Positions 30,826 to 37,064 of a DNA stretch of 64,000 nt are shown here, in pieces; positions within the stretch are counted from its first letter, which is position 1; each line of letters starts with the position of its first letter. The stretch lies in contig NZ_QGHD01000003.1 in assembly GCF_003148885.1 (NCBI RefSeq), positions 62,001 to 126,000 on the forward strand, given 5' to 3'. The notes below the pieces were generated by a model. The model was not told the origin of the DNA. It ran no database searches and saw nothing but the letters and a program-made list of their open reading frames with translations. Both the position numbers and the translations under genes were made by a program. The DNA comes from Hallerella porci (GTDB lineage Bacteria; Fibrobacterota; Fibrobacteria; Fibrobacterales; Fibrobacteraceae).

Positions 30826-31617
30826 TTAAGTGTTAATCGGCGGAAAAGGAAGTTCCAAATCAACGCTAATAGGACAATGATCCGAGCCTTGAACTTGGGG
30901 ATAAATTTGCGCATCGGTAACGTTTTGCGCTAACGCCGAATCGACGAAAGCATAATCAATTCGCCAACCGATATTGCGTTCACGGGAATTTGCCCGATTA
31001 GACCACCACGAATACGCATCGGAAACATTCGGATGCAAAGTGCGGAAAGTATCTTCAAAACCGGCGGCGATATATTTATCAATCCAAGCGCGTTCAATCG
31101 GCAAAAAGCCGCTCACGTTTTCGTTTTCTTTCGGACGAGTGATGTCGAGTTCGGTATGGCAAGTATTGTAATCGCCGAGAGTTACCACATGACGTCCGCG
31201 CTTAAGCCATTCCAAGCTGTTGTCCAAAAAGGCATCGTAAAAGCGCAATTTATAATCGACGCGGTCTTCGCCTTGTCCACCGTTCGGAAAATAAATGGAA
31301 TTTAAAACCCAATCGGGAAAGACGAGCTGCACAACGCGACCTTCTTCGTCAAATTCTTCGATGCCAAAACCGTATTCGACGGAGTCGGGTTCAATTTGAC
31401 TTAAAATCGCAGTGCCGCTGTAGCCCTTTTTCTTTTGACAAGGATTCCAATAGCAGAAATATCCTTCGGGCGAGGCAATCGTCTCGGGAATTTGATCTTC
31501 TTCCGCACGAATTTCTTGTAAACAAAGAAGTTCAGGCTGCGTCGTCTTAAACCAATCGGCAAATCCTTTCTTTTCGGCAGAACGGATGCCGTTCACATTC
31601 CAACTATAAATGCGCAT
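30826..31617 (-). CDS. xthA: Exodeoxyribonuclease III (AP endonuclease family)
   Basis: Cuts DNA at abasic sites and removes 3' blocking groups in base-excision repair. 263 aa, normal length. MRIYSWNVNGIRSA opens the fold; catalytic residues are Glu of LLCLQEIRAEEDQ, the Asp/Asn of TLGDYNTCH (in place of GDFN) and the Asp-His of VQGSDHCPI. It lies 15 nt after the lipoprotein gene, so it may be read with that envelope operon. Confidence 0.95.
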   Translation of the reverse strand: MRIYSWNVNGIRSAEKKGFADWFKTTQPELLCLQEIRAEEDQIPETIASPEGYFCYWNPCQKKKGYSGTAILSQIEPDSVEYGFGIEEFDEEGRVVQLVFPDWVLNSIYFPNGGQGEDRVDYKLRFYDAFLDNSLEWLKRGRHVVTLGDYNTCHTELDITRPKENENVSGFLPIERAWIDKYIAAGFEDTFRTLHPNVSDAYSWWSNRANSRERNIGWRIDYAFVDSALAQNVTDAQIYPQVQGSDHCPISVDLELPFPPINT

Positions 31618-31632
31618 GCGCCAAAGATAGTT

Positions 31633-32214
31633 TTATTTGTTCGCTAAAAAGCTAAAATCTTCGCAAGAAAGGACTTCTAAGCGGTTTCCCATCGCTTGGT
31701 TGCGAGTCCGATCGCTGCCGTATTTTTCGGGAATGCGGAAGCAATATTCGTATTCGGTTCCGGCATCGGTCGGAATCGTGAGTTTGAACGCGCGGATGCG
31801 GTCTTCGCGCTTGTGACTTGTACCTTTATAGCCTTCGTGATATTCGTAACGGTTCTGAATTTTCTTTAAGCGAGCGTCTTGGTCAAAGCGCAAATCTTGA
31901 ATGATTTGGCCGGAAAGTTCCACCGGGAAACTGCCTGGAATACGCAGTTCGGTTTTGCCGTTCGCTTGGACGATTTTCGCGTCTTTGGGATTGACTAAAT
32001 AACGTTCTTTTGCAATGTTGCGGTAAGACTTAAAATGCACTGTGCGCACGCCGCAAAGTTCCCGCATATCCGGTTGTTCCACAAAGTCAATTTCACGGCA
32101 AGCGGGCGGCATATTTTCGGGCACTTCTAAGTTGCTGCCGTCAGAAGTTCCACCGCAAGCGGTAAAAAATGTCAAAAACGAGAAGGTAATTCCCAACGCA
32201 AATTTGAATCTCAT
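31633..32214 (-). CDS. Putative lipoprotein of unknown function
   Basis: 193 aa from the ATG at 32214; an ATG 39 nt earlier would add a non-hydrophobic stretch before the signal. Residues 1-20 are a lipoprotein signal, hydrophobic with the lipobox FFTAC and Cys20 followed by GGTSDGS, so it should be lipid-anchored; the +2 Gly does not predict inner-membrane retention by the enterobacterial rule. The rest contains four more cysteines and a beta-rich pattern (HFKSYRNIAKERYLVNP, TEYEYCFRIPEKYG). No family recognised. It follows the small membrane protein and the POTRA-barrel gene in the same direction. Confidence 0.75.
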   Translation of the reverse strand: MRFKFALGITFSFLTFFTACGGTSDGSNLEVPENMPPACREIDFVEQPDMRELCGVRTVHFKSYRNIAKERYLVNPKDAKIVQANGKTELRIPGSFPVELSGQIIQDLRFDQDARLKKIQNRYEYHEGYKGTSHKREDRIRAFKLTIPTDAGTEYEYCFRIPEKYGSDRTRNQAMGNRLEVLSCEDFSFLANK

Positions 32215-32281
32215 AATGCTAATATAAATTTTACTTGTATAAAGCGCTTGCAAAAAAGAAAAGTTTTGCGTTTTTTGGCGA

Positions 32282-32563
32282 TTATGTCATTGAAATCAGC
32301 GTTCCTACGACGACGAGAGAAAGCATTAAATTCAAAAAAAGCATTGTTCGGCGAAGAATTTTGGTGAACGATTCTTGCCAAGCGGGATCTTTGACTTCTT
32401 TGATTTCTTTAATCCCGAGAAGAACGCTTAAAAATCCGGTAATGACGAGCATCAACGCTCCCGGAAAATAGCCATCGTTCCACACTAAAATCGAGATGAA
32501 TGCCCCGAGAATCATCGCGATTCCGCCGACGCAAACTTCAAAGCGAGCGAGTTTTTTTTGCAT
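32282..32563 (-). CDS. Small membrane protein (93 aa)
   Basis: Three hydrophobic segments: about 11-28 (CVGGIAMILGAFISILVW), 32-50 (FPGALMLVITGFLSVLLGI) and 72-91 (MLFLNLMLSLVVVGTLI), with a charged loop EIKEVKDPAWQESFTKILRR between the last two. No recognised family. It begins 9 nt after the POTRA-barrel gene, so it is in the same operon. A partner role for the upstream envelope proteins is possible but not shown. Confidence 0.65.
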   Translation of the reverse strand: MQKKLARFEVCVGGIAMILGAFISILVWNDGYFPGALMLVITGFLSVLLGIKEIKEVKDPAWQESFTKILRRTMLFLNLMLSLVVVGTLISMT

Positions 32564-32572
32564 GAAAACCTC

Positions 32573-34321
32573 TTAAAGCGAGAATAAAGCGATGAGACTA
32601 ATCCGCGGTTTCGATGATTTTAAGGGTCCATTTAATGGCCAACTAAAATTCAAATGATTCACCAATTTCGTGACGGATTTTGTCATCGCAAAGCGGACGC
32701 CGACGCCTGCGATATAAGTCAAATCGTCGGGCTCAAATTCGTGAACGGCAGAAGAAGTTTCGCCAGCTTTAAAGAATGCGGCAAAGACGGGCGCAACGGT
32801 TCCGATTTCAAAATGCGGAAAGAATCGTTCTTCAATTTGCCCGTAGAATCGCGCTTGTCCGGTGTAAAGATACGTCGGAAATCCGTAAAATTCTTGATTC
32901 GAAAGTCCGCCGAGAGAAAGTTGTTTTCCGAATGCGGCGCGTTTATAAGTATCCATGTAGCCGAGAAGTTGCGTTGAGAACCATTCATTGGAACGCCAAA
33001 TATATTCTGCAGAAATGCGTTCGTAAATATCGCGGCGAGAATCGTCGGTGACATAAAAATAGGACCACGCCGAAAGCATTAAATGATGCATCCGCGAACC
33101 GAGTGCGAGATAAATTTTATAGTCAAATCGCCAATCGTTATCGGTGGCGCCGAGCGCTGTGAAATTCTTGGATGCGCCGATTTTTACGCTGTAACCTTTA
33201 TCGACGTCTTCCGTCCATTTGGCGTGGCGGAAATTCGTCAAACGATCGTAGCGAATCCGCGAAAAGGTGAAGCTTAATCCAAAACGCGAATCGACCATAT
33301 CGGGAATCCAATGTTTTACGTCGCTAGAATCGAGTGCGTAAGCGCGATTATCTTCTAAGAAAAGATAACGCGAAGTGTTTTTATACGAGCGTCCGAGACG
33401 ATGATAGTCATAGCTTAAATTCAGATAAATTTTGAATTCTTCGCTTCCGAAAGAATGCCCGATGCGAAAACTTGTCGAATCTTCTTCGAGTCCGTTGACG
33501 CGGATGACGCGATTTCCATGTTTGCGATTGTAATTGGGCAATTCTTCTTTGACGGTATCGGCAACAGCAACGGAAACTTTTTTCGTCGGGAGCTTCCCCG
33601 TCCAATAATATTTCACATCTTGCTTGTCCATATATTCGGCAAATGTGTAAGCCCATTCATTTTTACTGCGAGAAAGGTATGGCTTATACATGGTGAAATA
33701 ATTCGTGTAGCCATCAGTATTGTCCGAAACCGAAACTTCTAAGCGATTATTTCGGAAAAGGAAATTGCTGTTGTTATACAGAGCCATAAAGCGGTCGCGG
33801 AATTCATCGTGCGAATAATAAACGCCGATGGTTTGTCCAAATCCGAGGAAATTATTTTCCCAAATTCCGACGCCGTAATAAACAGGACCATCGCTCGGAC
33901 GTTCTAAGGAAAGCGGCACCGTAAGCGTCCACGTATCGCTTGTCTTCACCCGCAAAATATTTTTTCCATCGGCAGAAATTTCACGGGTAATGTGTGCGTC
34001 AGCAATATACGCTTGGCTGCGCAAATTTTTTTCGCTTTCAATGAGTTCGTACAAATTCACTGTATCGCCGACATCGAACAGCACGAGCTTTCGCACGACC
34101 GATTCGCGGGTTTCGATGTGAATTGTATTTCCGATGTGATAAACTAAACTATCTGCCCACGTGTAAGCTTTTGAATCGTCAAATGCATCGCCCGGATAAA
34201 CAGCGATAGAATCGACGCGGAAATATTCGAGCGAATCCGCAGTCGGCTGCACAAACATCGGCTCGGGCGTAACGGCTGCGGCATAGATTGCCAACGAAAG
34301 AATTGCAATTAAAATTTTCAC
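32573..34321 (-). CDS. Outer-membrane beta-barrel protein with POTRA-like domain (Omp85/BamA-like)
   Basis: 582 aa. Signal peptide about 1-16 (MKILIAILSLAIYAAA). Residues about 55-115 fit one POTRA domain (IHIETRESVVRKLVLFDVGD, then an amphipathic ELIESEKNLRSQAYIADAHI and a beta pair). From about 130 the chain alternates aromatic and polar residues as in a beta-barrel, with a C-terminal strand ending in a hydrophobic SLIALFSL. The DUF748 protein gene upstream overlaps it by 4 nt. Fewer POTRA domains than BamA (five) or TamA (three). Likely an Omp85-family barrel for protein or lipid insertion; the substrate is unknown. Confidence 0.75.
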   Translation of the reverse strand: MKILIAILSLAIYAAAVTPEPMFVQPTADSLEYFRVDSIAVYPGDAFDDSKAYTWADSLVYHIGNTIHIETRESVVRKLVLFDVGDTVNLYELIESEKNLRSQAYIADAHITREISADGKNILRVKTSDTWTLTVPLSLERPSDGPVYYGVGIWENNFLGFGQTIGVYYSHDEFRDRFMALYNNSNFLFRNNRLEVSVSDNTDGYTNYFTMYKPYLSRSKNEWAYTFAEYMDKQDVKYYWTGKLPTKKVSVAVADTVKEELPNYNRKHGNRVIRVNGLEEDSTSFRIGHSFGSEEFKIYLNLSYDYHRLGRSYKNTSRYLFLEDNRAYALDSSDVKHWIPDMVDSRFGLSFTFSRIRYDRLTNFRHAKWTEDVDKGYSVKIGASKNFTALGATDNDWRFDYKIYLALGSRMHHLMLSAWSYFYVTDDSRRDIYERISAEYIWRSNEWFSTQLLGYMDTYKRAAFGKQLSLGGLSNQEFYGFPTYLYTGQARFYGQIEERFFPHFEIGTVAPVFAAFFKAGETSSAVHEFEPDDLTYIAGVGVRFAMTKSVTKLVNHLNFSWPLNGPLKSSKPRISLIALFSL

Positions 34322-36630
34322 GGAAGTTCAACCGCCATTCGGAAGACGGATTTCTTTCCCGTGTTGCTTCGTTCCGCGGCCGTTGCGCTGCGGACTTGAA
34401 GATTCTTTGCGGTGACGCCTGTTTGCGCTTGCAACGCTTTTAAAAGTTTTGCGTTGCGCTCTTCGGCGAGAGCGTTAATTTGGGCGATTAACGCTTCGTC
34501 TGACGGACGTTGCCACGAAGCTACAAACTGTTTGAACGCATCATCTTCTTCGGCTTCTAAAGCAGCTTTGCGTTCTACCGGCGTCAAATTTTCTTTGCCA
34601 TTTGTCGCTTTGTAAAATGCAAGTTTTTCCATTTTAAGAGCGAAAGATTCCAACTGTTTTTTCGGATCAAAATTTTGCAAAATCGTCATCGAAGCGCCCG
34701 GTTTTTGCGCTAAAATTTCGGTCCATTTTTTCGCGATGCCATATTGTTCGCTCGTAAAATCGTTTGCGGCAACATCGATTTCAAATTCGCTTGGCGTCGA
34801 TGAACCGAAGAGGAATTTCGCCGGAGAAAGTGCGACTTTAACAAGCAAATTTCTCACCGTTTGCCAAATGATTTTTCCGTATGAAAATTCCGGATCATTC
34901 AAATTTCCTTTGATCGGAATATCGAATTCAATTTTTCCATCTTTGTCTTTCAAAATGTAAAGCGCGACTTTCATCGGAACGCTGTATTCGGGTTTTGCGT
35001 TATCCGGTTTATCGCCGACGGTTAAATTGTAAATGTCGATATTGTGACGGCTATCGATTTCATTATTTTGAATGACATTGTCCGAAGCGAGACCTAACGA
35101 GCCCGCGACAAGCGGATAGCCTGTATAATGTTCCGAATATTTGGAGAAATCTTTCATGCTCACATTTTTCACATCGATGTTCGCTTGCAAAGAATTTAAA
35201 TCCGACGGTTTAATTTTTGCAGAAACTTTGACCGAACCGCCGTGTGGCAGTGTGGCGCGGACGCGGACCGTTGTTTGCTTTTCAAAGGCGACGTTTGCAG
35301 CGTCGACAGAAATTCCCGAAACCGTATAAGAAAATCCGCCGGGAATTGTGTTGTCGTTGAGTGTAAACTTGGTATCCGAAAAGGAAAGTTGTTTGAGAAG
35401 CGCATCGAGAGGCTTTGCCGCTTCCGTTTTTTTCGGCTCCGCAGCCGGTGTCGCTTTTTCTGTTTTTGTCGAATCATCTTTCGCTTTGACTTGGAAATCT
35501 TGCGCGGCGTTCGAATCAGCGGGGGCCGCTTTTTTCGGCGTTAATAAGACTTGCAAATTGTTGGAATTTTTATTCATATCAAAGTGTGCGAACGCTCCGC
35601 GCACCAAGACAGAATCGATGACGAAACGATTTTCATTTAAATTGGCTTCGGCAATTCCTACGCCGATGTGATCCACACCGAGAGTTTTTCCCGAAGATTC
35701 TGTTAAGACGACATCATCGACGGAAACCGTTCCATTCACCGCCGAAGCGAGAACGTCATCCACATTTCCTGAAACCGAAATATCGACGCTCACTTTTCCC
35801 GAAAGATCTTGGAAATTCAGCGCGCTTTCTAAGTAAGGTTTGACGGCGCCGATTGCAAAATCCGAGAGTTTTACATTCAATGCAAAATTGCCTTTTTGCA
35901 TATTGTAATCGGCAGAAACGCCTAACGAACCGCCGCTTGCAAATTCCAATTTGACGCCGGCAGAAGTATTCTTATTCGAGAAATAAACTTCGGGTACTTT
36001 TACTGAGAAATCTTTGATTTCAATATCGGAATTGACTGTCTGATCGACGTAAATGACGTTGCCCGAAAGAATGGCGATTTTTTTAATGGAAATGCCGAAA
36101 GGAAGCGCGTTCACTTGACTTGCGCCCGGAGCGGTCGCAGAATCCTGCGCAATTTTTGTCGAATCCATTTGTGAATTTGCTAACGAATCTACCGCCGAAG
36201 AATCCATCGCTGCGGCTTCTAAAGAATCCGTTTGCGATGAATCGCGCGCTGCTAAAAATTCTAGCATATCCGTGAAATTAAAAACTTCCCCATTTTGAAT
36301 GACGCGGGCGTATGGCGAATCGATTTTAAGTTCCGAAAGGCAAATGTCGCCGACGAAAAGGCAGCTCGGATCGGCGTTTACGAAGAATTGATGAAAGGCG
36401 GCAAATCGGGTGACGTCGTCATTTTCGTAAAGCACAAAATCATCGATTGTCACCGTAAAGCGGAACGGATTAAAGGAAATATTTCCAATTTCCATTTTTC
36501 GCCCGATCAATTCTTTCGAATGCTCTTCGATATAACCGCGCGCAATTTTCGGTGCAAAAAAACATGCGGCGATAACGAGGAGAATTAAAACAGCGAGAAT
36601 GATTCCGAGAATACGAAATGCTTTTTTCAT
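34318..36630 (-). CDS. AsmA-like DUF748 envelope protein
   Basis: 770 aa. One N-terminal membrane helix (ILGIILAVLILLVIAACFF, about 8-27) and a large periplasmic part. AsmA-type N-terminus: IARGYIEEHSKELIGRKMEI then ISFNPFRFTVTIDDF. DUF748 core near 540-600: YSVPMKVALYILKDKDGKI then FDIPIKGNLNDPEFSYGKII. Two low-complexity linkers: Asp/Ser-rich (about 130-170) and Lys/Ala/Glu-rich (about 390-430). The family (AsmA, TamB, YhdP) is thought to form lipid-conducting bridges between the membranes. It is translationally coupled to the POTRA-barrel gene, like tamB after tamA but in the reverse order. Confidence 0.82.
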   Translation of the reverse strand: MKKAFRILGIILAVLILLVIAACFFAPKIARGYIEEHSKELIGRKMEIGNISFNPFRFTVTIDDFVLYENDDVTRFAAFHQFFVNADPSCLFVGDICLSELKIDSPYARVIQNGEVFNFTDMLEFLAARDSSQTDSLEAAAMDSSAVDSLANSQMDSTKIAQDSATAPGASQVNALPFGISIKKIAILSGNVIYVDQTVNSDIEIKDFSVKVPEVYFSNKNTSAGVKLEFASGGSLGVSADYNMQKGNFALNVKLSDFAIGAVKPYLESALNFQDLSGKVSVDISVSGNVDDVLASAVNGTVSVDDVVLTESSGKTLGVDHIGVGIAEANLNENRFVIDSVLVRGAFAHFDMNKNSNNLQVLLTPKKAAPADSNAAQDFQVKAKDDSTKTEKATPAAEPKKTEAAKPLDALLKQLSFSDTKFTLNDNTIPGGFSYTVSGISVDAANVAFEKQTTVRVRATLPHGGSVKVSAKIKPSDLNSLQANIDVKNVSMKDFSKYSEHYTGYPLVAGSLGLASDNVIQNNEIDSRHNIDIYNLTVGDKPDNAKPEYSVPMKVALYILKDKDGKIEFDIPIKGNLNDPEFSYGKIIWQTVRNLLVKVALSPAKFLFGSSTPSEFEIDVAANDFTSEQYGIAKKWTEILAQKPGASMTILQNFDPKKQLESFALKMEKLAFYKATNGKENLTPVERKAALEAEEDDAFKQFVASWQRPSDEALIAQINALAEERNAKLLKALQAQTGVTAKNLQVRSATAAERSNTGKKSVFRMAVELP

Positions 36631-36660: not shown

Positions 36661-36666
36661 TGTTTT

Positions 36667-37026
36667 GGGACGACGGATGACCGCTCTTGCGAAAGCATGG
36701 GAGGAAAGTCCGGGCACCACAAGGCAGGATGCTGGATAACGTCCAGGCGCAGAAATGCGACGGATAGCGCAGCAGAAAATAAACCGCCTCTTCGGAGGTA
36801 AGGGTGAAATGGCGAGGTAAGAGCTCACCGCGGACCTGGCGACAGGGACGGCATGGCAAGCCCCATCCGGTGCAAGACCAAGCAGAATTCCGCTTTCTTC
36901 GGAAAGCCTGGGTAGCCTTTCCAGTTGGAGTTCGGGTAGGTTGCTTGAGGCCGCCAGTAATGGCGGATCCAGATAGATGGTCATCGCCGACTTCGGCCGG
37001 CACAAAACCCGGCTTATAGTCGTCCC
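36667..37026 (+). ncRNA. rnpB: RNase P RNA, bacterial type A
   Basis: Catalytic RNA that trims tRNA 5' ends. About 360 nt. The conserved core is complete: GGAGGAAAGTCCGGGC near the 5' end, GTAAGAGCTCACCG, GGTGCAAGACCAA in the middle, and AGATAGATGGTCATC plus CACAAAACCCGGCTTATAG near the 3' end. Helix P1 is formed by GGGACGAC (36667-36674) and GTCGTCCC (37019-37026), and this closing stem followed by AATTTTTTT also acts as terminator. Confidence 0.97.
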
Positions 37027-37064
37027 AATTTTTTTACTTCAAAGCGTGAAACCGCAGAATTTTT

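Follow-up and report, generated by a model that had tools for sequence, protein, structure and literature searches.

A gene for a DUF748/AsmA-family protein overlaps by 4 nt the gene for a single-POTRA Omp85-superfamily protein in the window analysed here, the whole stretch of 64,000 nt from Hallerella porci contig NZ_QGHD01000003.1, and this DUF748-Omp85 pairing is real but young. The reading that we lean towards, with slightly better than even confidence, is that of a three-gene operon (duf748, omp85 and the gene for a small inner-membrane protein) in which an AsmA-type lipid conduit has only recently come to be expressed together with an accessory Omp85 protein of BamA-like type. It draws on an overlap that is kept in all six sampled members of the genus while the flanking genes change, on the position of omp85 beside rnpB throughout the class, and on the presence of a separate BamA and a separate TamB-TamA pair in the same genome.

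Gene organization of the locus

The features of the locus, in window positions, are as follows.

30826-31617, minus strand: xthA, exodeoxyribonuclease III (TIGR00633, 302 bits)
31633-32253, minus strand: putative lipoprotein ORF, TTG start
32282-32563, minus strand: three-helix membrane protein, 93 aa, 9 nt past the stop of the Omp85 gene
32573-34321, minus strand: single-POTRA Omp85-superfamily (BamA-like) protein, 582 aa, signal peptide, GTG start
32576-33931, minus strand: its predicted beta-barrel, residues 131-582, ~20 predicted strands (DSSP of the AlphaFold2 model)
32855-32941, minus strand: its loop-6 region, residues 461-489, with EFYGFP in place of VRGF/Y (alignment)
33935-34210, minus strand: its POTRA domain, residues 38-129 (AlphaFold2), the best-conserved part of the family
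34318-34321, minus strand: GTGA overlap, 4 nt, shared by the DUF748 stop and the GTG start of the Omp85 gene
34318-36630, minus strand: DUF748/AsmA-family protein, 770 aa (ORF call, Pfam, AlphaFold2 and Foldseek)
34321-34692, minus strand: its predicted C-terminal OmpA-like domain, residues ~647-770 (AlphaFold2 and Foldseek)
36665-37032, plus strand: rnpB (RNase P RNA, RF00010), divergent; 34 nt lie between it and the start codon of DUF748

Open reading frames confirmed the five minus-strand genes where the first-pass annotation had placed them, together with the 4-nt overlap, the 9-nt spacing and a gene order that is reversed relative to the TAM partners. The 770-aa protein exceeded the Pfam cut-offs for both DUF748 (PF05359, 310.3 bits, cut-off 50) and AsmA (PF05170, 43.8 bits, cut-off 29.8) and has one N-terminal hydrophobic segment, as expected of the single inner-membrane helix that had been proposed. 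Three hydrophobic segments were likewise found in the 93-aa protein, for which Pfam gave scattered matches, all of them sub-threshold, and the Omp85 protein carries a signal peptide. In the lipoprotein ORF, translation more likely begins at an internal ATG (32214), which lies ahead of the Cys of a lipobox-like FTAC.

The annotation had also treated all five genes as one operon and had counted the three-helix protein and the lipoprotein as two extra membrane- or lipid-anchored products. The operon is well supported for the first three genes, and the three-helix protein is a conserved neighbour; the lipoprotein and xthA, on the other hand, follow in this genome only. Homologues of the lipoprotein occur genus-wide at other loci, with same-strand placement confined to the window genome, and xthA is adjacent there alone; the lipoprotein is probably not part of the unit. 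Upstream, since only 34 nt separate duf748 from rnpB, which the annotation does not mention, the divergent promoters must presumably overlap coding or RNA sequence, and a consensus promoter scan of this region gave matches no more frequent than those in shuffled sequence. A cluster of ORFs upstream of omp85 was rejected as a gene, being the antisense of rnpB.

Predicted structures of the DUF748 and Omp85 proteins

AlphaFold2, supplied with 13 relatives, gave a model of moderate quality for the DUF748 protein (pLDDT 72.3, pTM 0.54), with two long disordered inserts and a layout of inner-membrane helix (residues 7-25), beta-groove (~45-580; about 26 strands, to residue 576), hydrophobic helix (~584-607) and alpha/beta C-terminal domain. 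The top Foldseek match, a weak one, was TamB of the TamAB structure (9xdd_B; probability 0.93, E 9.6e-3), followed by Pal (4g4w), OmpA-like and OprF C-terminal domains (probability up to 0.93, E above 0.1), and together these matches point to a groove plus an OmpA-like tail in the predicted model. The tail is missing from homologues in genus g4. Since the canonical peptidoglycan-binding Asp seems not to be kept (FDP here, YNP in other members), anchoring of the tail to peptidoglycan is unsure. A DUF748 profile scan of the genome's contigs returned nothing. The Pseudomonas aeruginosa DUF748 protein PA4735 is described in PMC10900882 as redundantly essential with TamB, YhdP and YdbH, and by family the protein studied here should move glycerophospholipids.

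Taken alone, the 582-aa protein fell below the Pfam cut-offs for POTRA and Omp85 (PF01103), the latter being matched by 1 of 30 relatives (at 8e-4); a search of solved structures by sequence gave no match, and comparing the barrel family with TamA in hhalign likewise yielded nothing useful. The BamA model TIGR03303 was matched over POTRA5 and the first strands (E 8.6e-8), as it was by 27 of the 30 relatives. AlphaFold2 with 30 relatives predicted a POTRA, modelled as a strand, helices and two strands, followed by a barrel (pLDDT 87.4, pTM 0.82), and Foldseek placed TamA and BamA on top (TamA 8us2, E 3.5e-12, then many BamA chains), in agreement with the earlier description of a signal-peptide-bearing protein with one POTRA and a barrel. 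TM-scores to TamA and BamA were low (0.28-0.42), compatible with a barrel that differs in size. DSSP of the model gave a short strand at 137-140 and then 19 long ones up to residue 579, and the alternation of turns and loops fits 20 strands, with loop 6 after the fifteenth and five strands beyond it, as in BamA. The model thus predicts ~20 strands for the barrel, where known Omp85 proteins, TamA among them (PMC12800296), have 16.

In the alignment, no row from class Fibrobacteria has the arginine of loop 6, the motif reading YGFP, VGFP, LNGYP and similar, while the arginine is kept in gammaproteobacterial homologues (LRGYP or a near variant, where the motif is readable) and in loci L090 and L091; the TamA encoded in this genome reads VRGY. 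Lacking this arginine and with a barrel modelled as larger, the Omp85 protein may no longer be an insertase. The POTRA is the best-conserved part of the family with or without DUF748, and this speaks for its having a conserved partner or substrate that is not DUF748. Clear homologues of the barrel protein were found in ~14 of 274 Gammaproteobacteria genomes, and neither DUF748 nor the three-helix gene lay within the 1.5-kb flanks of these loci. In Thiolinea disciformis (L172, 2966-6584) the homologue lies directly 3' of a sulfatase/LtaS-like gene, and the order in L182 seems similar.

Distribution and history of the pairing

The genome encodes BamA (951 aa, several POTRAs) at G000:C38, and at G000:C8 a 1,290-aa protein followed by a 635-aa POTRA plus Omp85 protein. 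The latter region (L113, 2116-7895) reads as a very divergent TamB beside TamA, the Pfam TamB model being without a match. That model (PF04357, TamB/DUF490) matched neither the DUF748 protein nor anything else in the genome at E<=1e-3, and it misses divergent TamB in most Fibrobacteraceae. Relatives of the 1,290-aa protein match it weakly (6.8e-9 in G093, 1.3e-4 in G027), and in a profile comparison a conserved C-terminal stretch of the 1,290-aa family aligned with TamB at E 7.7e-4 and 25% probability. On this sequence evidence we take the G000:C8 pair to be the TAM of the genome. With BamA and a TamB-TamA pair both encoded elsewhere, the duf748-omp85 operon is extra, and the earlier suggestion of an independent system holds to that extent.

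Conservation across Fibrobacterota, as surveyed by gene order, did not extend to the pairing. The phylum sample comprised 151 genomes, and neighbours were counted from match coordinates in 71 genomes for DUF748 and 75 for the three-helix gene. DUF748 as a Pfam family occurs in 143 of the 151, and the barrel gene in 104, nearly all of class Fibrobacteria and mostly without DUF748 nearby. DUF748 and the barrel gene lay no more than 5 kb apart in 6 of 71 genomes, exactly the six of the genus of the window genome, a branch of the gut-dwelling Fibrobacter that groups with Fibrobacter intestinalis ATCC 43854 among related named records; the two are encoded together in 6/6 genomes of that genus and 0/65 others, and six genomes of one genus count as one evolutionary event. 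A phylum-wide four-gene order was therefore rejected, the neighbours also changing from genome to genome, while the pairing of DUF748 with the barrel gene is conserved in more than one genome. The three-helix gene, in contrast, lay within 300 bp of the barrel gene in 53 of 75 genomes and within 5 kb in 62. Among 39 named Fibrobacteraceae loci it follows omp85 in 37, rnpB is the preceding gene in 28 (several more loci stop at a contig edge), and DUF748 stands between rnpB and omp85 in 4. The neighbour counts and the rnpB linkage indicate that rnpB-omp85-three-helix is the older unit, into which duf748 was inserted at the base of the genus. In this RNA/envelope-gene neighbourhood, itself old across class Fibrobacteria, rnpB is divergent from omp85 in Fibrobacteraceae and co-directional with it in families f3 and f5.

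Within the genus, the 4-nt overlap is identical in 6/6 members at 65-80% protein identity, with flanking genes that differ, and its conservation is more than chance. Outside it, the orthologous DUF748 type (profile A2) was not found in the searched genomes of g3, g5, g6, g8, g9, g10 and g11, for which completeness was 99% (g3), 95% (g5), 99% (g6), 92% (g8) and 96% (g9); the barrel gene was present in all searched genomes of these genera except G127. In g2 and g4 the DUF748 gene lies far from the Omp85 gene. In the DUF748 tree the sequences of the genus make up a single clade, beside those of g2 and f2, and the nearest relatives of the genus in the barrel tree are g10 and g5, both without this DUF748. 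The trees would fit either loss of DUF748 in between or lateral gain. Given the standard machinery elsewhere in the cell and the youth of the pairing, the operon looks like a lineage-specific variant and not a replacement.

Possible modes of action and relation to known systems

Under the reading that we favour, duf748 would have been set, in the ancestor of the genus, at the head of the older rnpB/omp85/three-helix unit, with its translation coupled to that of omp85. The product of duf748 would act as an AsmA-type conduit, held by its inner-membrane anchor and taking glycerophospholipids outward along a hydrophobic groove, with the OmpA-like tail keeping it at or near peptidoglycan, and the Omp85 protein would serve as an accessory BamA-like outer-membrane assembly factor, presumably an insertase, working with or without DUF748. 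Both lipid transport and insertase activity are here transferred from family function by homology. Co-translation throughout the genus suggests matched amounts of the two proteins, and the coupling might coordinate the supply of lipid with the insertion of barrels; the groove could touch the POTRA directly, but would not need to.

A closer association would be a dedicated TAM-like complex, in which DUF748 docks on the POTRA of its partner, or on the first strand of the barrel, and hands lipid or protein to that barrel for passage into it or through it, as TamB does with TamA. Such a complex is possible, and we consider it doubtful. Genus-wide translational coupling, the right membrane signals on both proteins, the fold search that relates the DUF748 groove to TamB and the family precedent of TamB-TamA (PMC12800296) all speak for such a complex. 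However, the Omp85 protein is kept in the seven genera without this DUF748 and is distant from it in g2 and g4, and conservation of the POTRA does not drop outside the genus, nor is the domain accelerated within it (72%, vs. 58% for the barrel, in comparison with g10). The C-terminus of DUF748 is moreover OmpA-like and not DUF490, and a groove of ~26 strands, at 4.8 A per strand, would span ~12 nm in the model, which suggests that it is short for the periplasm unless some outer-membrane component protrudes.

Positional accident seems unlikely to us. Under it, duf748 would merely have come to lie in a slot of high expression, opposite rnpB in divergent orientation, and be co-transcribed with a gene whose step is unrelated. 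The slot may indeed be favoured for expression, as omp85 lies beside rnpB class-wide, the arrangement arose just once, at the root of one genus, and there is no sign of co-inheritance, DUF748 being missing from g10, g5, g3 and g6, which are nearer g1 in the barrel tree than the DUF748-bearing g2. Against this, the 4-nt overlap has stayed exactly the same through 20-35% protein divergence and through turnover of the other neighbours. It would be similarly unlikely for the operon to constitute a second, non-TamB trans-envelope conduit beside TamAB, with an OmpA-tailed DUF748 groove feeding a 20-stranded, single-POTRA barrel devoid of the loop-6 arginine. That duf748-omp85 is itself the TAM of the organism, as the silence of PF04357 might have implied, was rejected, since a TamB-TamA pair sits at G000:C8.

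The duf748-omp85 operon is like TamA-TamB in joining the gene of an Omp85 barrel protein to that of an AsmA-superfamily groove protein anchored in the inner membrane. It differs in having DUF748 with an OmpA-like tail in place of TamB/DUF490, one POTRA instead of the three of TamA, no VRGF/Y arginine and ~20 predicted strands, and in being confined to one genus, whose genome retains its own TamB-TamA; TamB engages TamA through its C-terminal domain (PMC12800296), and the DUF748 protein is without those elements. TamL of Bacteroidota likewise is an Omp85 protein, substituting for TamA beside TamB, whereas it is a lipoprotein with three POTRAs and is encoded with a true TamB. Judged from described features, the barrel protein resembles the BamA-like Omp85 subfamily (Heinz and Lithgow, 2014; PMC4104836), whose members have a barrel and 1-3 POTRAs, always co-occur with BamA, to which they are additional, and have been hypothesised to help in outer-membrane protein assembly; the loss of the loop-6 arginine and the larger predicted barrel set it apart. 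PA4735 (PF05359, 1,088 aa) belongs to the same Pfam family and is AsmA-like, yet it is longer, and the accessible part of PMC10900882 reports no Omp85 neighbour for it.

No outer-membrane partner is known for AsmA itself (PMC4494059), and the short PA2708 may require one, as proposed in PMC10900882. A natural DUF748 plus Omp85 operon offers a concrete pair for asking how non-TamB AsmA-like proteins meet the outer membrane, and an Omp85 family that has lost the loop-6 arginine, and whose barrel is predicted to be larger, bears on what share of the Omp85 core is indispensable.

Several variants of the locus were also seen. In G102 (L065, 5772-7975) DUF748 is split into ORFs of 83 and 651 aa by an intervening stop, reflecting either a broken gene or an assembly error. 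Tandem duplicates of omp85 occur at L079, L084, L085 and L086 and in G090 and G114. Finally, genomes of the F. succinogenes type carry, together with recG and in convergent orientation to the three-helix gene, an MlaD-domain (MCE) gene (L073, 4416-5432), a further lipid-transport gene in the vicinity.
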